21,578 bases of DNA from the IMG/VR virus record IMGVR_UViG_3300007735_000471, positions 1-21,578 of that record. The stretch is one strand, 5' to 3'. Shown here one piece after another: positions 2,724 to 19,428 of the stretch. How positions within the stretch are numbered: the stretch's first letter is position 1; each line of letters opens with the position of its first letter. The notes beneath the pieces were generated by a model. That model searched no databases and was not told the origin of the DNA. It worked only from the letters and a program-made list of their open reading frames with translations. The position numbers were made by a program, and so were the translations under genes. The stretch comes from a virus.

Positions 2724-2895
2724 TTTCCCCTCCTTGGTCGGATATGGCTACGTTCAACAAGTGTAGTGCGAAGCCAATCAGCGTGAACAGTAACGCCCAC
2801 GTCTGTACCTGCCCTGAGAGGGTGATGAGGGTGATGAGGGATGCGCCGATGGTAAGTCCGAGCGCGAGGAGTTCCTGTGTGATTCTGCGTATCAT
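2683..2895 (-). CDS. Two-helix small membrane protein (holin/antiholin candidate)
   Basis: A 70-residue protein with two clear transmembrane segments, about 8-28 (starting LLALGLTIGASLITLITLSG) and about 31-51 (starting VQTWALLFTLIGFALHLLNV). It ends in a very hydrophilic Asp/Glu/Arg tail. Its ATG overlaps the stop of the secreted PA14-like gene (ATGA, 4 bases), and its own 3' end overlaps the next holin-like gene by 41 bases. This puts it at the head of a compact lysis cassette. A holin, antiholin or other membrane accessory role is inferred from topology and position only. Confidence 0.65.
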   Translation of the reverse strand: MIRRITQELLALGLTIGASLITLITLSGQVQTWALLFTLIGFALHLLNVAISDQGGESDRTPDETERDDR

Positions 2896-4193
2896 TCGCC
2901 GTTCCGTCTACGCAGGACTGCCGTTGCTGCACCCATTGTATTCGCCACCGCCACCAGCGTCACCCGCTCCGCAACCGTGATCGTCTGACCCACCATCTTG
3001 TAAGACGACCAGATACCGGAGAACACGTTCACATTCTCCTCGAACGCCTTCTTCACCCCGTCGGGTGCCTGGTCAAGGGCTTGGATGATGAGGGCTGCCT
3101 GGTCGTCTGTGACCGATTCCTCGTCTAAGGCAGCGAATAGAACCGTAGCCTCAGCCGTTGATAGTGATTCCACTACTGAAGGGTTCGTGACTTGTTGGAG
3201 AGCTTGCTGATTGCTGATACCAGGCTGAATCGTTGGGATGGTCGTCGCCGTCTCAGGGATGGTCGTCGTCGGGATCGTCGTGTCAGGGACGCTCAGGCTG
3301 GTCGTCAAGGCGATACTGCTGGTGGTGGCAGGGATTGTGGTTTGTGGCGCGACGGTCGTTGAGACCGGTTCGGTAGTCTGAACAGGGATCGTCGTTGAGG
3401 TAGGAGGTTCAGATGTTGTGGTGGTTGACGCTTCCGTTGTTGTGGTTGCTGGAGGCACCCAAACAGGTTGCGGTGCTTGTGTTGTTGATGTGGTTGTACT
3501 GGATGTTGTTGAGATCGTCTCGACGAGGGTTGTAGACGACTCAGTTGTCGTCGTCTGTTCGACTGTGGTTGAGGTTTCCTGAAGCGTCGTAGAAGTAGTT
3601 GTCGTGGCAGGGGCAGTCGTTGTCGGGGCAGTAGTAGTAGTGGTCGTCGTCGGTGGTGTGTATCCCGTTGTGAATGCCCATTCTGGAACTATCTCCCAAT
3701 CCCCATCATCTATCTTCCATGCCAACATGAGACAGGTTCCGCCACCATGCTCATACATCCACACATTGAGCGGATGAACACCCGACTCTAGTTCCAGCGG
3801 CCCCGACAGCGTCGCCGAACATCCCTGATCCGCCCATCGACCAAACGTGTTCCCGCCGATAGTCGCCTCCCCACCATCATCGGACGCCAACCAGAACTCA
3901 ATCGTCTCATGCTCAGGGATCGTGATGAACCCTGTCATCTGCACCATGAAGAAGTCATATGTGCAGTCCTCGAACGGCTCCCAATCATACGAGCGGTTGA
4001 TGTTGTCTTCGACCTCAACCCCGCACACCGAATACTGATCCTCGGCCTGTGCCGGTGGAATCTCGTCGATGCTGTAATAGATCGTCCGAAGACCAGGCAA
4101 CGCCTCAGCCTGTGCTGATTGTGGGAGGAAGGCGAACGCTAGTGCAGGGATGGTGAGAAGCCAGCGTCTAGCCGAAGAGTGCGGCAACCTCAT
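2892..4193 (-). CDS. Secreted PA14-like protein with long Thr-rich linker and C-terminal hydrophobic segment
   Basis: A 433-residue protein. Residues 1-29 form a good signal peptide: a basic start (RR at 9-10), a hydrophobic core (LLTIPALAFAFL) and a likely cut after AQA. Residues about 35-172 resemble a PA14/GLEYA-type beta-sandwich: a FITIPEHETIEFWLASDDGG strand pair, a GGNTFGRW turn and LNVWMYEHGGG. Four Cys (57, 77, 125, 154) could pair in an oxidising environment. PA14 domains usually bind carbohydrates or act as ligand modules. Residues 181-325 are a mucin-like Thr/Pro/Ser linker. The C-terminal 95 residues form a helical module ending in a hydrophobic stretch (about 404-427) and RRR, compatible with a membrane anchor or with a recurring phage virion module. 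It starts inside the 62-aa gene (26-base overlap) and is coupled to the lysis genes (ATGA). It could be a host-surface protein or a virion receptor-binding protein. Confidence 0.75.
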   Translation of the reverse strand: MRLPHSSARRWLLTIPALAFAFLPQSAQAEALPGLRTIYYSIDEIPPAQAEDQYSVCGVEVEDNINRSYDWEPFEDCTYDFFMVQMTGFITIPEHETIEFWLASDDGGEATIGGNTFGRWADQGCSATLSGPLELESGVHPLNVWMYEHGGGTCLMLAWKIDDGDWEIVPEWAFTTGYTPPTTTTTTTAPTTTAPATTTTSTTLQETSTTVEQTTTTESSTTLVETISTTSSTTTSTTQAPQPVWVPPATTTTEASTTTTSEPPTSTTIPVQTTEPVSTTVAPQTTIPATTSSIALTTSLSVPDTTIPTTTIPETATTIPTIQPGISNQQALQQVTNPSVVESLSTAEATVLFAALDEESVTDDQAALIIQALDQAPDGVKKAFEENVNVFSGIWSSYKMVGQTITVAERVTLVAVANTMGAATAVLRRRNGE

Positions 4194-8565: not shown

Positions 8566-9252
8566 CTACTTCAACTGCGAATACAGCCCTTCCCAGTCAG
8601 CGAGCATCGCACGATACAACTCACGTCCTTCCAAGCCAGCCCAACGATCCGCATTCCCGCCAGCCCACCACGCCTCCGACAACATCTCCGCACCAGCACG
8701 AACCTTGCGCGGATTCCGAGCAGTACGCACCGACGGCTGAGACTGCGTCTCATCCCACGACCACTCAACCGTAAGCAGACAACCCGAACCTTCATGAAAC
8801 TCGAAGTCTGCGTTCGGTGCATGTTGAGGCAGATAGAACAGTCGGGCAGGGTCTTTCGTCTGCGGATCGGCAGGCAGATTCAACCGCTCAACCAACTCCA
8901 ACCACACCGCCCGCCACAACCCGCCAGGCACACGCTCATCCAACGGCAGAACAAGGTGATAGTGCGGATCATCAACCGTATGCGAATAGGTCGAATATGC
9001 GAACCACTCCAACCCATCCAAACGACACGCCTCCAACGACGCACCGTCAATATCCACCACCAACGCCTCAACGAACCGCACATTCCGATTCCCTCGGGTC
9101 GTGTTCTCGTAATAGGTGACAGGCGACCACAATGCACCCGACGCCTTCTCAGCGTTCTCCTCGTGCATTGAGAGAAGCTCTTTGAGGGTGGCCCAGTCGG
9201 ACGCCAACGATTGTGGCTGTATTGACTTGACTGAACTGAACCAGACTGCCAT
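8566..9252 (-). CDS. Small primase/polymerase-like (AEP superfamily) protein
   Basis: A 228-residue protein. I start it at the ATG at 9252 because AGGAGG lies just upstream; a longer TTG-started frame to 9297 lacks a site. Residues 62-70 read LVVDIDG (D67, D69), the paired acidic metal site of archaeo-eukaryotic primase-type domains. STYSHT (87-92, H91) is followed by DPHYHLVLPL (95-104), like the conserved His and basic/strand motifs of Prim-Pol proteins. A DPQTKDPARLFYLPQ segment (129-143) matches the conserved D and R-x-Y-L-P region. Such proteins prime or copy DNA, often fused to a helicase. Here the domain is alone, without a helicase, inside the tail operon between a gp10-like gene and the tape measure. 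The C-terminal 70 residues are a helical Trp-rich region. The family call rests on motifs; activity is inferred. Confidence 0.6.
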   Translation of the reverse strand: MAVWFSSVKSIQPQSLASDWATLKELLSMHEENAEKASGALWSPVTYYENTTRGNRNVRFVEALVVDIDGASLEACRLDGLEWFAYSTYSHTVDDPHYHLVLPLDERVPGGLWRAVWLELVERLNLPADPQTKDPARLFYLPQHAPNADFEFHEGSGCLLTVEWSWDETQSQPSVRTARNPRKVRAGAEMLSEAWWAGGNADRWAGLEGRELYRAMLADWEGLYSQLK

Positions 9253-9259
9253 GACCCCT

Positions 9260-9272
9260 CCTGTCTTACAGG
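9260..9272 (-). promoter_or_regulatory. Hairpin overlapping the ribosome site of the primase-like gene
   Basis: CCTGT-AAG-ACAGG is a perfect 5-bp stem with a 3-base loop. Its 3' arm shares AGG with the AGGAGG ribosome binding site at 9262-9257. It could hold down translation of the primase-like gene relative to its structural neighbours. A small stem of this size can occur by chance. Confidence 0.25.
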
Positions 9273-9297
9273 TTAGCGGGTCTGGGCGGAAAGTCAA

Positions 9298-11834: not shown

Positions 11835-12491
11835 TTACCCCAACACCACAGGCGGCCATTCAGGGCCACGAACTACACGACCATCCAATAACAATCGCTT
11901 CAACAATTCGACATGCTGTTGAGCAACAGGATCGGGATGCAACGACAATGCCTCAGGATGTCGAGTGTGATTGAACCGAACCTTGAGGTCAAAGTCCACC
12001 AGATAGCCACCGGCACGAATCTCGCACCATTGGCACCAATCAGCCCACTTCGTTCGACGCCAAGGCAACTCAACAGCCACCGACCTACGCAACATGAGCG
12101 ACCCGCGCATCGGATTATCTGAAGATGTCAGAATGCGCTCAAACCCATTGGCATCAGGGAAGAAGGTTTGCCCCGTTGATTCCATACCAGATATGGCAAT
12201 CACGTCAGCCGCCTCATTCAACCCCTCCAAGGCATCCACCTCAAAGAGGTCGTCAATGCCAGTAGGCCATACCCAGTCGGCGGTGGAATGTCGAATCGCA
12301 TCATTCCACGAATCCCAGAACAACTCAGTCGAACGAATATTCGTCACGAAACCAGGCACATCCAACGGCTCCAACGACGCCACAATCACCTCAGCAGGCT
12401 TCGTGCGCATCGCCTCAACCGAAGCACAGAACTGCTCACCCCACTTCGCCCAATACTCAACCGACGAACAACCAATAATTGCGACGCTCAT
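11835..12491 (-). CDS. GT-A-like glycosyltransferase (third of cluster)
   Basis: A 218-residue protein starting MSVAIIGCSSVEYWAKWGEQ. It has a short N-terminal Rossmann-like strand and an acceptor-like F-W-D-S-W-N-D-A-I-R-H segment. WVWPTGIDDLF follows, with D80-D81 where GT-A enzymes carry the metal- and nucleotide-binding Asp pair, then a C-terminal region with KWADWCQWCEIRAGG (about 148-162) and a late His-rich segment (FNHTRHPE). This fits a compact GT2-type transferase, shorter than most. It overlaps the stop of the GT2-like gene by 4 bases (ATGA), so the two are co-translated. The sugar and acceptor cannot be told from sequence. Confidence 0.65.
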   Translation of the reverse strand: MSVAIIGCSSVEYWAKWGEQFCASVEAMRTKPAEVIVASLEPLDVPGFVTNIRSTELFWDSWNDAIRHSTADWVWPTGIDDLFEVDALEGLNEAADVIAISGMESTGQTFFPDANGFERILTSSDNPMRGSLMLRRSVAVELPWRRTKWADWCQWCEIRAGGYLVDFDLKVRFNHTRHPEALSLHPDPVAQQHVELLKRLLLDGRVVRGPEWPPVVLG

Positions 12492-13168
12492 CTATCCCAA
12501 CCCAACTGACATCGACGTTCTAGCGACCACTCCTGATGCACAGGAAACAGATCGCCCTCCCATCTTCTCAGATACAGCTCTTGATTGGCTTGGAATGACG
12601 CCGCGTTCTTCTCAGCCAAGGCTCGATCAGCGTTGATGGTTGCCGAGTTCTCGTGGCGCACCTTGGCCGATGAGCGCACCATGTGGATTCCGTATGCCTT
12701 GGCTCGACGCTCGTAGTCGTTGTCCTCGAAGTAGGCGGGATGGAAGTTCTCGCAGAACAGGCCGATCTTGGCGACGACGTTGCGTCCGATGTGGGCGCAG
12801 CACCAGCCTGGGTCTCCGGCGAGGGTGATGGTGTCTGGGCTGCAATCGCCGTGAAACTGCTCAAGCGCACCAGGCTCAAACCAGGCGTCGGAGTTGAGGA
12901 GGAGCCAGCCGTCGTCGCTGTATGGTGTCATTTTGATACCAAGATTCCATGATGTCGCGACACCAAGATTTGTGGGCATGGAGAGGATGCGATAGTCGTC
13001 GATCTGTTGACGGTCAATGAACCAGGGGCAGTATGTGCGACTGGCCATGCCACCATTGTCAATGACAATCAGGGTTCCGACTGGGTAGTCGAATGAGCCG
13101 ATACAGCGTTCGAGAAGGTCGTACCGGTTGAGGACTGGGATGATGATTACTGGGACGAACGGCACCAC
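12488..13168 (-). CDS. Family 2 (GT-A) glycosyltransferase
   Basis: About 226 residues from the GTG at 13168, chosen because GAAGGA lies 9 bases upstream; a TTG-started extension to 13198 is possible. The order of motifs is that of GT2 enzymes: VPVIIIPVLNRYDLLERC (nucleotide-binding strand and loop), IVIDNGG, PTNLGVATSWNLGI, then LLLNSDAW, whose Asp serves as the DXD-like metal site. Near residue 150 comes P-A-Y-F-E-D-N-D-Y-E-R-R, the usual catalytic E-D region. It probably transfers a sugar from a nucleotide donor. It overlaps the GT4 gene by 22 bases and the next gene by 4, so the three form one unit inside the head genes. Confidence 0.8.
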   Translation of the reverse strand: MVPFVPVIIIPVLNRYDLLERCIGSFDYPVGTLIVIDNGGMASRTYCPWFIDRQQIDDYRILSMPTNLGVATSWNLGIKMTPYSDDGWLLLNSDAWFEPGALEQFHGDCSPDTITLAGDPGWCCAHIGRNVVAKIGLFCENFHPAYFEDNDYERRAKAYGIHMVRSSAKVRHENSATINADRALAEKNAASFQANQELYLRRWEGDLFPVHQEWSLERRCQLGWDR

Positions 13169-14445
13169 GCCGACAGTTCCTTCATGATTGGCTTCCAATG
13201 GGCTTCATAGACGCGATCTGCGGAGTATTGGCTGGCGAACCCCACAGCGGCCTCATCCGCCCCTCTGGGGGCTTCGTAGGCCTCTCTCAGGGCATCCACG
13301 ATGGAAGGTACCTGAGGGGTGCAGAACCAGGCTCGCTGGGCGGCATCCCAGAACGGCTGGGTCTCCACCTTCCAACCCGACCCAACCAGCTCTGGCTGGG
13401 CGGTGTAATCGGAAACGATAACGCGAGTACCGCACGCCTGGGCTTCGACCACAGGAATCCCGAACCCTTCACCCATCGAGCAGGCAAGTAGTACGTCGGC
13501 AGCCGAATAGATCGCAGCCAACGCTCCCTGGGGGACGCTCATTCTGTAGGCGTACTGGTCGATGATCTTGTATTGGTGCGGTTCCAATCCGCAAGCCTCA
13601 ATGAGGTGCAGAAGGTTGATACCACCCATTGAACCCATTGACTCGGTGTGCAGATAGAGCATCGCGTCTGGTCGATGTTGAGCGAAGATGGCGAACGCAA
13701 GAATGTTCTCGGCGAACGATTTGCGGGACGGATTCACACCCTTGTTGGCTGAGTTCATCATGACGACGAATTTGTCGTCGGGGATTCCCATGATTTCCCG
13801 ACCGGTCATTTCTTTGGTGCCGTTGCTCCATGTCGGGGTTGGCTTGAATACCGATTCGATTCCGTGTGGCGCATACAGGCATTCCACGTCTTGCGCCTCA
13901 AACATTCGTTTCCCGAACTGTGACATCGCAATCGGTTTGACGTTGTTGCGTTGACAGAACTTGATGACTTCTGGTGGGCATGGTGCGTGATCGACAGGAA
14001 CCCATGATGCGATGTTCTTGATGTTGTCGATAGATGGCGACTTCAATACCCATACATCGAAGAGGGTCATGAGCAGGGAAGGGATGTTGCGGTTGCCGTT
14101 TGTCCAGTCCATGAAGTGCGCGGCGACGACATCATCCGAGTAGGCGGCCATGCCTCGCGGATACATCTTGATCCCGTTCCACATTGACGGCACGGCCTCG
14201 ATGCCGTACATGGCGTGGATCGCTACTTCGTGGCCTTCTTGGATGAGGCGCGGGACGAGTTGCGCCGTTTGGGTGCCGTAGCCGGTTGGGGCGAAGGGGG
14301 CGTTGGAGTAGAAGAGGATTCGTAGCGATTCCCCAGAGGTAGGTCGGCTTGCTCCGGCAAGTGCGCTACGCCCCGACGCAGCAGGATTTCCGCTTCCAGG
14401 TCGGGTAACTCGACCGGAGTGTTGTTGACGATTACGAGCATTCAC
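13147..14445 (-). CDS. GT4-type (GT-B) glycosyltransferase
   Basis: 432 codons from the GTG at 14445. The conserved body begins near residue 41 with LRILFYSNAPFAPTGYGTQT and ends with GEGFGIPVVEAQACG (325-339), where E326 and E334 form the E-x7-E motif of GT4 retaining transferases. The sugar donor is expected to be a nucleotide sugar; the acceptor is unknown. The first 40 residues are low-complexity and read like the shadow of the 72-aa ORF that shares this DNA in another frame. No ATG, GTG or TTG occurs in frame between the GTG at 14445 and the conserved core, so the true start is unsettled. Standing between capsid and connector genes, it fits phage enzymes that glycosylate the virion. It overlaps the GT2-like gene. 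Confidence 0.8.
   Translation of the reverse strand: MNARNRQQHSGRVTRPGSGNPAASGRSALAGASRPTSGESLRILFYSNAPFAPTGYGTQTAQLVPRLIQEGHEVAIHAMYGIEAVPSMWNGIKMYPRGMAAYSDDVVAAHFMDWTNGNRNIPSLLMTLFDVWVLKSPSIDNIKNIASWVPVDHAPCPPEVIKFCQRNNVKPIAMSQFGKRMFEAQDVECLYAPHGIESVFKPTPTWSNGTKEMTGREIMGIPDDKFVVMMNSANKGVNPSRKSFAENILAFAIFAQHRPDAMLYLHTESMGSMGGINLLHLIEACGLEPHQYKIIDQYAYRMSVPQGALAAIYSAADVLLACSMGEGFGIPVVEAQACGTRVIVSDYTAQPELVGSGWKVETQPFWDAAQRAWFCTPQVPSIVDALREAYEAPRGADEAAVGFASQYSADRVYEAHWKPIMKELSAWCRSSQ
14223..14441 (-). CDS. 72-aa protein nested with the glycosyltransferase start
   Basis: Starts at the ATG at 14441, with AAGGAG 9 bases upstream. The N-terminus MLVIVNNTPVELPDLEAEIL is a plausible small folded or helical unit. 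The second half is a Ser/Pro/Thr-rich, then Lys/Arg-rich, tail (ending SSRASSKKATK), like the disordered basic tails of small head-associated phage proteins. It lies right after the capsid gene and its hairpins. Its whole length overlaps the GT4 frame, which starts 4 bases earlier, so at least one of the two starts is not as drawn. I think both products are likely real. Confidence 0.55.
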   Translation of the reverse strand: MLVIVNNTPVELPDLEAEILLRRGVAHLPEQADLPLGNRYESSSTPTPPSPQPATAPKRRNSSRASSKKATK

Positions 14446-14561: not shown

Positions 14562-15740
14562 TTACGGCTGGAGCAGGTGCTTGATGTGGCTCGTCTGCGG
14601 CAGGTTGCCGTCCACGCGGAACTGTGCGCGGAAGGTGATGAGGCCCGCGTTGAACGCGTAGTCATCCGACCTGTCAAGGCGGAGTCCACCGACCGTGCGC
14701 ACGAAGTACGACGGGAGGTGTCCGACGATGACCGACTTGGTGCCGGTTGCGACGTCCACCATGTTCGGGTTCTCGTAGATGGGCTTGCCGAGCAGCATGT
14801 CGGGGCTGTCCATTGCGAGGGACGGCTGGAAGACGTAGTTTCCAGCGGTGTCCTTCAGCTTGCGAACTGCACCGATCGACTTGCCGTTCATCATCCAGCC
14901 GACGCCTGGGAGGTTGCGTGCTGCACCGTCCAAGGAGTAGAGCAGGTCGATGAGGTTGTCTGCGGTGAACGCGGTGGCCGTGCCTGCGGTGCCGCCAACG
15001 GACGAGGCCGTGACGATTCCGCGTGGCTCAACCGTGCCGGTGCCGACCGTGAGGGCCGAGCCGACTGCGAAGCCGAGTGCGTTTCCGACCTGATCCGCGA
15101 GGAAGCCGAGGAAGTCGACACCGGAGTCGGTGAGGAGTTCTTCGGAGACCTGGGTCAGGAAGGAGTACTTGTAGGCACCGAGCGTGACGAACGCGTTGAA
15201 TGCCGGATCGCTCTCGCCCATTGCGGCACCTTCAGCGTTGATCGTGCCAACCGAGTAGGTCGACAGCGACGGAATCTGGAGGTTCTCGCCACCTGCGGTG
15301 TTGAGGACGGTCGAGGTCTGGAGGACTGGGGCGACCAGACGGGCGCGCATGATGACCTGGTCGTAGAACGACGTCGGCACCGGCGAACCGGTGCTGGTCT
15401 TCAGCACGTCACGACGCTCGAACGAGTGGCTGCGCTTCTCGCCTGCGATGAGCGAGCGGAGGGCGGCAGCGTCGTCGGCGGCGGGAGCCTGGGCGACTGG
15501 GCGGGCCTGGTCTGCGATTTCGCGGGTTGCGGCGTCGAGACGCAGTTCACGGGCCTCATCCTCGCGGAGCTTGGCGATCGTGGCTGCACGCTCGTCGAGT
15601 TCCTTGGAGATGCGCTCGTAGGTCTGCGATTCCTCAGCGGTGAGGTCACGCTTCTCTGCGGCTGCTGCGTCGAGAATCGACTTCGCCTCGTTCCAGGCGC
15701 GGTTGCGAATCTCGACCTGGCGGTCGATGTATTCCTTCAT
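14562..15740 (-). CDS. Major capsid protein, HK97 fold
   Basis: A 392-residue protein. Residues 1-100 form a charged, helical scaffold-like delta domain (MKEYIDRQVEIRNRAWNEAK, with many Glu/Lys/Arg) that is normally removed by the prohead protease; cleavage would be near the start of the core at about residue 105-115. The core has features of the HK97 gp5 family: VPTSFYDQVIMRARLVAPVL (about 120-140), a beta-rich E-loop region, GVDFLGFLADQVGNALGFAV (spine-helix region) and LLGKPIYENPNM near the end. The start has an AAGGAA ribosome site. It follows the protease gene after about 126 bases and is followed by two hairpins. I did not identify a HK97-type cross-linking residue pair with confidence. 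Confidence 0.9.
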   Translation of the reverse strand: MKEYIDRQVEIRNRAWNEAKSILDAAAAEKRDLTAEESQTYERISKELDERAATIAKLREDEARELRLDAATREIADQARPVAQAPAADDAAALRSLIAGEKRSHSFERRDVLKTSTGSPVPTSFYDQVIMRARLVAPVLQTSTVLNTAGGENLQIPSLSTYSVGTINAEGAAMGESDPAFNAFVTLGAYKYSFLTQVSEELLTDSGVDFLGFLADQVGNALGFAVGSALTVGTGTVEPRGIVTASSVGGTAGTATAFTADNLIDLLYSLDGAARNLPGVGWMMNGKSIGAVRKLKDTAGNYVFQPSLAMDSPDMLLGKPIYENPNMVDVATGTKSVIVGHLPSYFVRTVGGLRLDRSDDYAFNAGLITFRAQFRVDGNLPQTSHIKHLLQP

Positions 15741-15866: not shown

Positions 15867-17804
15867 TTAGTGGATGTCTCGCAACAATTCAAGATGCTTG
15901 GCGAGGATGCCGATTCGAGCCGGTGCCGCTTCTGGCTGTGGCTCCAACTTAGCGACCGTTTCACGCAGCAGGTTCGCGTGATCTGGGCTGAGTGTCTGAC
16001 CTGCTTCGAGGTTGGTGATGGCGACGGCGAGCTGGTCGGCGTCAACACCGGTGCGCTGGGCGAGCGCATCAAAGGAGCGCACCGAGGCGGAGGTGGCGGT
16101 GTAGGCGGGGAAACCGGTCACGACCGACACCTCGAAGAGGCGAATCTGCTTGAGGGTGCGCTGTGTACCGTCTTCGCTCCACACGTCGCCACCAGACGGG
16201 ACGGTGAAACCGAACGACATCGAGTCCACATCCTTGCGTTGCATCAGCACCGACAGGTCACGACCGACGGTAGTGTCAGGTAGATCAGCATCAACGAGCA
16301 GACCTTTCGAGTCTTCCTGAAGGCGCAACGTCTTGGCACGGGTGGTGGCCAACAGCATTGACGAGTCATGGTTCATGTACATCCGAATGTTGTTTCGGGA
16401 CTTGAGCGACTTGGCGAATGCGCCAGGCATGATGCGCTCGATGAACGGCAATGGCTCCGAATCGGAGTTGAACACGGCGGCATATCCGGTGAATGACATA
16501 CCGTCACCCTTCGGCGCGGCCCGTAACTCGAACTCGTTGAACGTGACCCTGCGTGTCTCGACCTGTTCAGTCATGACATCAAGAGTACCCGAGTCATGTT
16601 CGCGTGTGCGATGGAACGCGAACGTGCGGTCAGCCTGCTCACGGTCACGCTTGATCTCGTCAGCCTTCTCAGCGAACCAGTTCATCGCCTGCTCAGGCTT
16701 CGTCGGGTCAATACCCCACAGATAGAACGCAACCGCACCAGCCCCAGGGAACTGCTCATTGTTCGGGTTACTGTTCCGAGGCACATCCAAGTCGACTAGA
16801 TGTCTGGCTCCCCAAGCGTTCGCACGAATGACCTTATCTTCCGTGATTCTTCCTTGAGCCATTTCACGGGCTTCACGCACAGTACGAGCCACAACGCCTG
16901 CACCTGCAAGGCTCTTCCCGTAATAATCCAACCCTTTTCGGGCGTTGGATTTGATGTATTCGGGGACATCCAGGTTCACCTGCCGTTCTTCGCGGCTCTG
17001 CGGAGCCTCAATGGTTTTCGGGTCGAGGGTCTTGATTCCGAGATCGGCGTAGGCGCGACGTGCAGCCTCATCGTTGTCAATGGCCAATGCGACTGGCTGT
17101 TCGGACAGAATCTCTTCAGCCTTTGCCTTCTTGTATTCGGGGGTCGGAATGCTCATGTCTTCGTTGAACTCGATGTCGTCGTAGAGGACGCCAGCGTCGG
17201 CAAGTTCAGCGACGGTGGATTCTTCCTCGTCTTCGCTTCGACCGGTGACGATGTAGATGTAGTAATCGGCATACAGACCGTTCACATAGTCGACGTTCTT
17301 TTGGATGCCACGTCCGCCCGCGATGAGCGTTCCGTCAATGTCAACGATGACGACTTCTTCTGCGTCTTCGGATCGTTGAGCGGTCGGTTCTGGAAGCGAA
17401 TCAATTTTTGTGAGTGTGGAGAACTTGTGTCCGACCAGAACTTCAGTTGGCTGCCAGCCACCCTCATACTGCTCATAGATGCGGATTAGCGCAGCGGGGT
17501 CTTCCTCGGTCGCTTCAATGCTGAACTTTGTTCCTGGTACCCCGAGCGTTCCTTGACGCATGACATGTTCGATACGGCCTCGAGCGGTGCCACCAGATGA
17601 ATCCCAGCGCACGAAATCGCCTTCACTGAGCTCATCTGGTGCGGCACGTTCCCCGCCTGGGGGCATGTCTTCGGCGATAGAGATGGCGACCATCTGGTCA
17701 ATGGCGGCCTGTTTCGTGGTGTGGCATCCCATGACTTCTCCGTCTTCTTTTTCGACAGCCCAGCCTGCACAGTCGGGATTGGAATTGGTGATGAAGTACG
17801 GCAT
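15867..17804 (-). CDS. Multidomain protein: Tudor-like + HAD phosphatase-like + helical domain + HK97 prohead protease
   Basis: A 645-residue protein, far longer than a lone prohead protease (about 200-250). Residues about 60-85 (EGDFVRWDSSGGTARGRIEH) look like an SH3/Tudor-type segment. Residues 150-260 carry all four HAD motifs: D155-I-D157-G-T, T187 in IVTGR, Lys at about 225-228, and D243-N-D245. Residues about 275-390 are a helical domain (N-L-D-V-P-E-Y, ARKGLDYYG, WGARHLVDLDVPR) of a type often joined to head-maturation proteases. From about residue 425 the protease domain follows, with H479 in MNHD and S528/S530 in DSMSFGF as likely catalytic residues, ending SVVTGFPAYTATSASVR. It should cut the capsid delta domain. 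It is coupled to the 92-aa gene (TGATG). Met411 could start a lone protease, but no ribosome site is seen there. Confidence 0.85.
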   Translation of the reverse strand: MPYFITNSNPDCAGWAVEKEDGEVMGCHTTKQAAIDQMVAISIAEDMPPGGERAAPDELSEGDFVRWDSSGGTARGRIEHVMRQGTLGVPGTKFSIEATEEDPAALIRIYEQYEGGWQPTEVLVGHKFSTLTKIDSLPEPTAQRSEDAEEVVIVDIDGTLIAGGRGIQKNVDYVNGLYADYYIYIVTGRSEDEEESTVAELADAGVLYDDIEFNEDMSIPTPEYKKAKAEEILSEQPVALAIDNDEAARRAYADLGIKTLDPKTIEAPQSREERQVNLDVPEYIKSNARKGLDYYGKSLAGAGVVARTVREAREMAQGRITEDKVIRANAWGARHLVDLDVPRNSNPNNEQFPGAGAVAFYLWGIDPTKPEQAMNWFAEKADEIKRDREQADRTFAFHRTREHDSGTLDVMTEQVETRRVTFNEFELRAAPKGDGMSFTGYAAVFNSDSEPLPFIERIMPGAFAKSLKSRNNIRMYMNHDSSMLLATTRAKTLRLQEDSKGLLVDADLPDTTVGRDLSVLMQRKDVDSMSFGFTVPSGGDVWSEDGTQRTLKQIRLFEVSVVTGFPAYTATSASVRSFDALAQRTGVDADQLAVAITNLEAGQTLSPDHANLLRETVAKLEPQPEAAPARIGILAKHLELLRDIH

Positions 17805-18082
17805 CAGACTGGCTCCGATAACCAGGAAATCTCGTGATTATTTTTTGTTCCCACGACATACAGCACATCTGCTGGTGAGACAGTCAATGACAAGGATTCC
17901 CCATGATTCAACACGTAGCCGTTGCCAACTGAAAGATCCGATCCGCCGATGTAGCAGATTGCGCTTGCATCATTGTTGCGAAGATAGAGGCGGTATGGGT
18001 TGCCACCATGAAACCCAACGAATGAGCCATCTAGTCTCGTGGCCACAGTACCGACCGCGACGATGCCGCTGTAGAACGCCAC
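17804..18082 (-). CDS. 92-aa beta-rich head-region protein
   Basis: Starts with GTG at 18082, whose G is shared with the portal stop (TAGTG), and stops within the start of the protease gene (TGATG). This tight coupling argues for a virion or assembly role in step with portal and protease. The predicted structure is mostly strand (starting MAFYSGIVAVGTVATRLDG, then YRLYLRNN, AICYIGG, NGYVLNHGESLSLTV, VLYVVGT), like a small jelly-roll or Ig-like domain. Similar proteins decorate or stabilise heads in several phages, but I do not recognise a named family. Confidence 0.65.
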   Translation of the reverse strand: MAFYSGIVAVGTVATRLDGSFVGFHGGNPYRLYLRNNDASAICYIGGSDLSVGNGYVLNHGESLSLTVSPADVLYVVGTKNNHEISWLSEPV

Positions 18083-19428
18083 TACTGCACCTCGTAGGCG
18101 GCTTGCGGGTCGGTTGGGTTGACGGTGGAGATTGGTTGCAACTGGGTGGATGGGAGACCTGTGTGGTCGATGGACGGCAACTCAAGCGCAGCCAGCACAC
18201 CAGCAGGATCAAAGCCTGCGAGGATAAGACGCTGAGCGATCAAACTCTTGCGGTCAAGCTCGGCGAGGTTGGCGGCGTTGATGTCAACGTTGGCGAGTGG
18301 TACACGGTACGAGTCACCGCCTTCGACTGGTGACATGTCTTCGATACGGTGAATGTCGTTGATGGAGAGGAATCCTGCTTGGATGCCGGTGGAGAACGCG
18401 GCGTAGCGGGACGCCTGATCGCCTCGAAGCAGGCCATCGACATTGAACTTCATGAAGGCACGGTTGTCAAGAATCTTTTGGTAGCCGTCCTCAATCTTGG
18501 CGATGTAGGGGCGGAGTGTGTGCTGAACGAAGTGGATGCCGTTCTGTTCGACTGAGGCATACGACATCGCACCTGGCGTGGTGACACCGAGCATCGAGGG
18601 TGGACAGCGGAAAGTTCGTGCGATCTCCTCAACTGCGAAGCGTCGTGATTCCAAGAACTGTGCCGAATCATTGTCGACAGTCGTCTTGGTGAATGTGGCT
18701 CCACCGAACAAGATGCCTGGGCGATGCGAACGGCGAAGACCCTTGTGGCCCTGCTCGAAACCGTCAACCAAATCTTTCGCCTGCTCACGAGTCAGATTTC
18801 CTGGGAACTGGATGATGCCCGATGCGCTTGAGCCTTGACCGAAGAAACGGGCCGCGAACTCCTCCAACGCTCGAGCCAACCCGAGGTTCTCTTTCACTAA
18901 GTCGATGCGGGAACGGCCACGCAATTCGCCAGGCATCCGCAACTCGGTGATGTGAATCATGTCCTCAGCGGGAATCACGTCACGATTCTCAAAGATGTAG
19001 ATCGGGCGACGGGTCACACGGTCACGGGAACATTCGACACGCTGAGGATTCAACACCACCAACCCAGCGATCCCAGCATCGTCACGCAGAATGCGGGTGA
19101 ACGAGTTACCGTCCAGAAGCAGAGAGACGAGAACCTGCTGAAAGTGTTCGGTGCGGGTCACACCTGACTCTGGGTAATCCAGCCACGATGGGCGCGGCCT
19201 GAACGGGCGACGCTCACCATCAACCCGAATGAACGTGTCAACAGGCAGAGTAGAAATGCTGTCAGCAATCAGACGGACACACGCATACACAGCTTCGATC
19301 TTGAGTGAATCGTTCTGTGTGATGACCGTGCCAGCATTCGTGGACACGGTGAACCCGTCGCCTGCGGCGAATAAGGATTGGAATGAGATGGCGCGACGAT
19401 CACCGCCAGGCAAGAGACGCGACAACAT
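18082..19428 (-). CDS. Portal protein, HK97 family
   Basis: A 448-residue protein with the HK97-type portal pattern: LKIEAVYACVRLIADSISTL (about 42-61), a hinge with LDYPESGVTRTEHFQQVLVS, VLNPQRV, and the clip/stem region FRCPPSMLGVTTPGAMSYAS (about 278-297) followed by EQNGIHFVQHTLRP. Such proteins form the dodecameric ring at one capsid vertex through which DNA is packaged and ejected. The gene starts by sharing a base with the stop of a 51-aa membrane protein (TAATG), and its own stop overlaps the next start (TAGTG). The C-terminal ~50 residues are a low-structure tail. No nuclease or MuF fusion is seen. Confidence 0.9.
   Translation of the reverse strand: MLSRLLPGGDRRAISFQSLFAAGDGFTVSTNAGTVITQNDSLKIEAVYACVRLIADSISTLPVDTFIRVDGERRPFRPRPSWLDYPESGVTRTEHFQQVLVSLLLDGNSFTRILRDDAGIAGLVVLNPQRVECSRDRVTRRPIYIFENRDVIPAEDMIHITELRMPGELRGRSRIDLVKENLGLARALEEFAARFFGQGSSASGIIQFPGNLTREQAKDLVDGFEQGHKGLRRSHRPGILFGGATFTKTTVDNDSAQFLESRRFAVEEIARTFRCPPSMLGVTTPGAMSYASVEQNGIHFVQHTLRPYIAKIEDGYQKILDNRAFMKFNVDGLLRGDQASRYAAFSTGIQAGFLSINDIHRIEDMSPVEGGDSYRVPLANVDINAANLAELDRKSLIAQRLILAGFDPAGVLAALELPSIDHTGLPSTQLQPISTVNPTDPQAAYEVQ

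Follow-up and report, generated by a model that had tools for sequence, protein, structure and literature searches.

An HK97-family prohead protease with a predicted HAD phosphatase among exchangeable N-terminal modules

The fusion gene and its predicted phosphatase

The window, the whole 21,578-nucleotide stretch of IMG/VR virus record IMGVR_UViG_3300007735_000471, carries a 645-residue open reading frame (ORF) on the minus strand, read from position 17804 down to 15867. Modules of this protein and its relatives are designated by letter: A, N-terminal; B, Tudor; C, HAD; D, helical; E, protease; F, four conserved cysteines; G, DUF5824-like. The principal features are as follows.

15867–17804, minus strand: 645-residue fusion ORF, comprising module A, Tudor, HAD, module D and S78 prohead protease in that order
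17646–17804, minus strand: module A, residues 1–53 (MPYFIT...PGGER), with a weak match to DUF2188 (0.043) only
17391–17633, minus strand: Tudor/SH3-like module B, residues 58–138 (Hva1_TUDOR match and alignment)
17001–17363, minus strand: predicted HAD phosphatase module C, residues 148–268 (PHROG_415, AlphaFold2, fold match and dN/dS)
16620–16991, minus strand: predicted all-helical module D, residues 272–395, LPEYIKSNARKGL...FYLWG (AlphaFold2 pLDDT 93.6)
16068–16532, minus strand: Peptidase_S78 domain, residues 425–579 (Pfam E 6e-44; TIGR01543 2e-33)
18082–19428, minus strand: portal protein, without appended modules (Phage_portal 2.5e-77)
14562–15740, minus strand: major capsid protein (MCP) of HK97 type with a ~100-residue N-terminal delta region (Phage_capsid 2e-54, residues 120–388)

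An earlier note had described this ORF as a prohead protease joined to a HAD domain and a Tudor-like segment, a layout borne out by Pfam, PHROG and AlphaFold2. The S78 domain scores well over the curated cut-offs (150.5 bits versus 21 in Pfam; 115.5 versus 59 for TIGR01543) and the gene lies between those of the portal and the MCP, placing the protein among HK97-family prohead proteases. Hva1_TUDOR (PF11160) matches residues 62–108 at E 2.4e-5, with 24.8 bits against a curated cut-off of 24.1; the match is clearer in relatives than in the window protein, and the Tudor alignment took in copies borne by portals, proteases and a scaffold-like protein. Across the family, almost every protease fusion begins with module A. 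The predicted structure of module D gave no PDB match at E ≤ 0.001 in a fold comparison, and its homologues occur in protease–MCP fusions, a portal and an XkdF-type protease. An annotation or frameshift artefact was rejected, as the 645-residue frame is uninterrupted and conserved and shows purifying selection.

Several other genes of the window, all on the minus strand, were noted. The gene at 8566–9297, between the head–tail and tape-measure genes, encodes a lone N-terminal primase-like domain (PHROG_9765 DNA primase, E 1e-20, profile positions 57–204 of 939). Three consecutive glycosyltransferase-like genes (11835–14445) directly follow the capsid gene, and similar genes occupy the same place in Pontimonas phage phiPsal1. 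The product of 2892–4193 consists of a PA14 domain and a long Thr/Pro-rich tail, and is possibly a host-surface binding protein.

The four HAD active-site motifs lie where the earlier note had placed them (D155/D157/G158/T159, T187-G188-R189, K225 and D243-N244-D245), and each motif residue is kept in at least 57 of 60 distinct HAD copies.

17328–17342, minus strand: motif I, DIDGT, residues 155–159 (D155, D157, G158 and T159 in 60/60 copies)
17238–17249, minus strand: motif II, VTGR, residues 186–189 (T187: T in 58/60, S in 2/60)
17121–17135, minus strand: motif III, YKKAK, residues 224–228 (K225 in 60/60)
17064–17084, minus strand: motif IV, AIDNDEA, residues 241–247 (D243 in 59/60, D245 in 57/60)

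R189 is likewise invariant (60/60), and D245 is replaced by glycine in three of the 60 copies. AlphaFold2 prediction of residues 147–272 from a 22-sequence alignment returned a HAD fold (pLDDT 93, pTM 0.86). The DxDGT motif, the T/S of motif II, the lysine of motif III, the acidic motif IV and a Rossmann-like fold together place the domain in the HAD superfamily, and we regard the predicted fold as well supported. The earlier note had named two observations that would refute its reading, motif residues that vary among homologues and a predicted structure without a HAD fold; neither was made. Pfam and NCBIfam alone place it below threshold (Acid_phosphat_B, 3e-4; Hydrolase_3, 0.017). The PHROG_415 'polynucleotide kinase' profile matches residues 150–273 at E 1.1e-12, and PHROG polynucleotide-kinase matches were also found in relatives L110, L174, L108, L150 and L242. 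Median pairwise dN/dS is 0.075 for the HAD domain versus 0.112 for the protease, and the HAD module is under strong purifying selection. The domain is probably an active enzyme, a reading we regard as well supported.

Its likely substrate was approached through its closest relatives in sequence and structure. A profile search of the HAD domain against PDB sequences gave weak HAD matches only, and the relationship emerged from fold comparison: the top PDB match of the model is the 3'-phosphatase of Pnkp, the polynucleotide kinase-phosphatase of T4 (5uj0; E 2.4e-6, TMq 0.74), with bacterial Pnkp1 complexes lower down among the matches, which also include Nir2 C-terminal domains, relatives that bind phosphatidic acid. 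Among annotated phage proteins, the closest in sequence (34% identity) are polynucleotide kinases from phages of Arthrobacter and Erwinia; PF25109 (HAD_PNKP) matches L110, below cut-off only. The T4 and window domains have motifs I, II and IV in common. The window domain is, however, smaller, lacking a loop of ~11 residues after motif I, and the T4 arginine R176, which we take to be important in Pnkp, is not conserved, the aligned position 165 varying between R, Q, E and S. T4 Pnkp also has a kinase domain, whereas the window HAD has none and is fused to a head protein. The closest fold and sequence relatives are thus of Pnkp type, while the loop and R176 are not kept. The suggestion in the earlier note that the domain acts on nucleotides or nucleic-acid ends accordingly holds in part: it gains from the closest relatives being Pnkp 3'-phosphatases and loses from the absence of these two Pnkp features. 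A search of 20 related records, which may be fragments, gave no PNK-type kinase above cut-off, so that these would hold no full end-repair system and the HAD domain, if it acts on ends, would act as a phosphatase alone. A search for a T4-type RNA ligase gave no match, but the control genomes also gave none.

Exchange of modules among head proteins

We compared the fusion with 80 relatives from viral contigs, supplemented by further scans. At least 11 arrangements combine the HAD domain with proteases of this one family:

A-B-C-D-E (window), A-C-D-E, A-D-C-E, A-C-E, A-C-D-G-E, A-C-G-F-D-E
A-F-D-C-E, A-F-D-G-C-E, A-C-B-D-E, A-C-D-E-B, D-C-E

Relatives that are 89% identical elsewhere cleanly lack the HAD domain (A-B-D-E). 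On the protease-domain tree, the distribution of the HAD domain requires at least ten gain or loss changes, seven of them forced by well-supported branches. These two observations uphold the view of the earlier note that the HAD domain is accessory to capsid maturation. The sequences closest to the window are arranged A-C-D-E and A-B-D-E, which is consistent with local recombination. Scans of bacterial and archaeal genomes with the HAD alignment and the full protein found no relatives; the nearest isolated phage is phiPsal1, and an actinobacterial host is suggested by this relative only.

The same modules are found on other head proteins. Relative L110 encodes a portal–HAD–MuF fusion, and L174 a portal followed by a proline-rich linker, Tudor, HAD and module D. 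Tudor modules stand at the C-terminus of several portals and also occur in protease–capsid fusions; in one relative (L235:2363-4936), a portal with a C-terminal Tudor continues into an ART-PolyVal ADP-ribosyltransferase domain. In Limnohabitans phage DC31, module D precedes an XkdF-type protease, and a Tudor is found in the next gene, which encodes a scaffold-like protein. The protease and the portal interior lie inside the procapsid. This location is the common trait of the module carriers, with the scaffold-like protein included by inference. Unrelated domains within one polypeptide among late head genes, together with the portal and MuF fusions, which occur in the relatives and not in the window protein, are the marks of polyvalent-type proteins; the modules would fit a polyvalent cargo that is packaged in the head and moved from one head protein to another.

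A candidate processing site and an internal start

Two features at the junction of the N-terminal array and the protease, and one in the MCP, bear on how the two parts might be separated.

16608–16628, minus strand: linker motif RTFAFHR, residues 393–399, proposed self-cleavage or docking site at the cargo–protease junction
15414–15434, minus strand: RSHSFER, MCP residues 103–109, presumed boundary of delta domain and mature capsid, matching the cargo linker
16582–16587, minus strand: TACTCT, a -10-like TANNNT at -13 to -8 before the internal ATG of M411
15867–16574, minus strand: predicted protease-only product from M411, beginning MTEQVETRR

Most MCPs in an alignment of 88 retain RSHSFER. 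Across 21 window proteins (6466 residues), the pattern R[ST][HFYLA].F.[RK] has two matches only, the linker and the MCP boundary, against 0.04 expected; because it was picked after both sites were seen, and similar R-S-F-S-F-x-R stretches turn up in other contexts, we treat the coincidence as a hint, not proof. The pattern R-[ST]-x-x-F-x-[RK] is present in many relatives, but some linkers do not match, and the motif may serve for docking instead of cleavage. We also considered every module junction, many of which carry R-A/S, as a cut site. This was rejected, as portal-borne copies lack R-A/S and the signal did not stand apart from module conservation; a cut is therefore proposed at the cargo–protease linker only. 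The idea of the earlier note that the protease may cut the HAD domain off as cargo finds indirect support in the motif shared by linker and MCP, the internal start and the HAD copies in portals.

A methionine before VETRR is found in the fusions. In 21 of 21 divergent fusions, which are related and not independent sequences, TANNNT stands at -13 or -12 before the equivalent of M411; resampling of synonymous codons gave a mean of 8.4 and a maximum of 15 in 2000 trials, versus the 21 observed. Conservation of TANNNT goes beyond codon constraint. In Actinobacteria, TANNNT ~12 bp upstream marks leaderless genes (PMC3160421, PMC3898074). M411 has the element at this spacing, which suggests a leaderless start giving a protease-only product. 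Elsewhere in the window, four more gene starts (21530, 11825, 9828 and 8556, minus strand) are preceded by TANNNT at -12 and lack a Shine-Dalgarno match, which suggests that this phage may commonly use leaderless expression.

Five relatives (L133, L137, L140, L142 and L150), representing a few lineages at most, have a split gene. The cargo, A-C-D with a Cys-rich tail, ends at its own stop (for example, L150:2941-4218), and the protease ORF begins 25 nt later at a methionine equivalent to M411. These separate cargo ORFs show no R[ST]..F.[RK] motif at their C-terminus, a point in favour of the cargo reading proposed below. As the cargo is made separately in these relatives, the fusion is not always needed.

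A proposed cargo array on the prohead protease and its known counterparts

We propose that the N-terminal 410 residues form an accessory cargo array on the prohead protease, with the HAD domain as one exchangeable cargo that is packaged, released and injected; we put the probability of this reading at about 55%. Its basis is the fold prediction, the retention of the catalytic residues, purifying selection, the repeated gain, loss and relocation of the module, and the occurrence of this HAD family in portal fusions. The full-length fusion would be expressed together with the late head genes and carried into the procapsid by its protease domain, which has to enter there, while the leaderless start at M411 would also supply protease without cargo. 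During maturation, the protease would cut its own linker at the site resembling the delta boundary, leaving the array in the head to enter a new host with the DNA upon infection. There, the HAD domain could remove phosphates from nucleic-acid ends or nucleotides, such as 3'-phosphates left by host nucleases, allowing ends to be extended or rejoined, and the Tudor module may help to bind DNA or a partner. A more specific version, which we offer tentatively, treats the protease as a loading dock: the exchangeable enzymatic and binding modules in its cargo slot would be co-packaged with it and freed by self-cleavage at the capsid-like site, the leaderless promoter would set the ratio of cargo-bearing to plain protease, and the HAD domain would be an injected end-cleaning phosphatase, possibly countering nuclease damage by the host.

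The array could instead be a structural or targeting extension that binds capsid, scaffold or DNA during assembly, with the HAD domain acting, if at all, in the dying host. Such a role would suit modules that sit on procapsid-interior proteins (protease, portal, protease–MCP fusions and the scaffold-like protein of DC31), and the constant N-terminal place of module A in nearly all protease fusions. We nevertheless consider it rather unlikely: the MCP has a delta region of its own, phages that are otherwise 89% identical can dispense with modules or exchange them, a purely structural role needs no catalytically conserved HAD domain under purifying selection, and an ART-PolyVal domain adjoins the same Tudor on a portal.

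The occurrence of one HAD family on two unrelated head proteins, protease and portal, and its closest kinship in sequence and structure with polynucleotide 3'-phosphatases make it improbable that the domain is a nucleotide or small-molecule phosphatase, fused by chance and serving late-infection nucleotide metabolism, for which packaging would be irrelevant. Loss of the Pnkp-specific loop, the variable arginine, the frequent promiscuity of HAD enzymes and the separate cargo of the split-gene relatives speak for that role. A catalytically inactive HAD serving as a binding domain would account for the glycine at D245 in three of 60 copies and for the Nir2 C-terminal domains among the structural matches, but it is very unlikely given that the catalytic positions are kept in at least 57 of 60 copies, including one inside a portal.

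If the cargo proposal is true, head loading would follow a rule readable from sequence, in which enzymes are fused to the obligate procapsid-interior protease and portal. The set of modules (Tudor, HAD, helical D, DUF5824-like G, Cys-rich F and ART-PolyVal) would then list functions that are candidates for injection, and both the predicted cut site and the internal start can be tested directly.

The window protein shares its protease domain and its placement between portal and MCP with HK97-family prohead proteases (S78, TIGR01543), and differs from them in adding ~410 N-terminal residues of exchangeable modules. The prohead protease of phiPsal1, gp6, is A-F-D-E: it has modules A, D and protease as in the window, but carries the Cys-rich F and neither HAD nor Tudor. 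Enzyme fusions to MuF, portal and the capsid-processing serine peptidase have been described in work on polyvalent proteins, including Nudix fusions to that peptidase (PMC5512222, PMC9503650). The text of Iyer et al. 2017 (PMC5512222) contains no phosphatase, Tudor, hipip or HAD domain, its three instances of 'had' being the verb. By open-access text search, the Pnkp-like HAD, its presence on two head proteins, its cassette behaviour, the linker motif and the internal start appear to be new. The polyvalent and head-fused effectors of Iyer et al. (2017, 2022) likewise bring multidomain enzymatic and binding modules into or beside head proteins; unlike them, the family described here swaps a Pnkp-like HAD at many positions within one protease family and has a conserved internal start.
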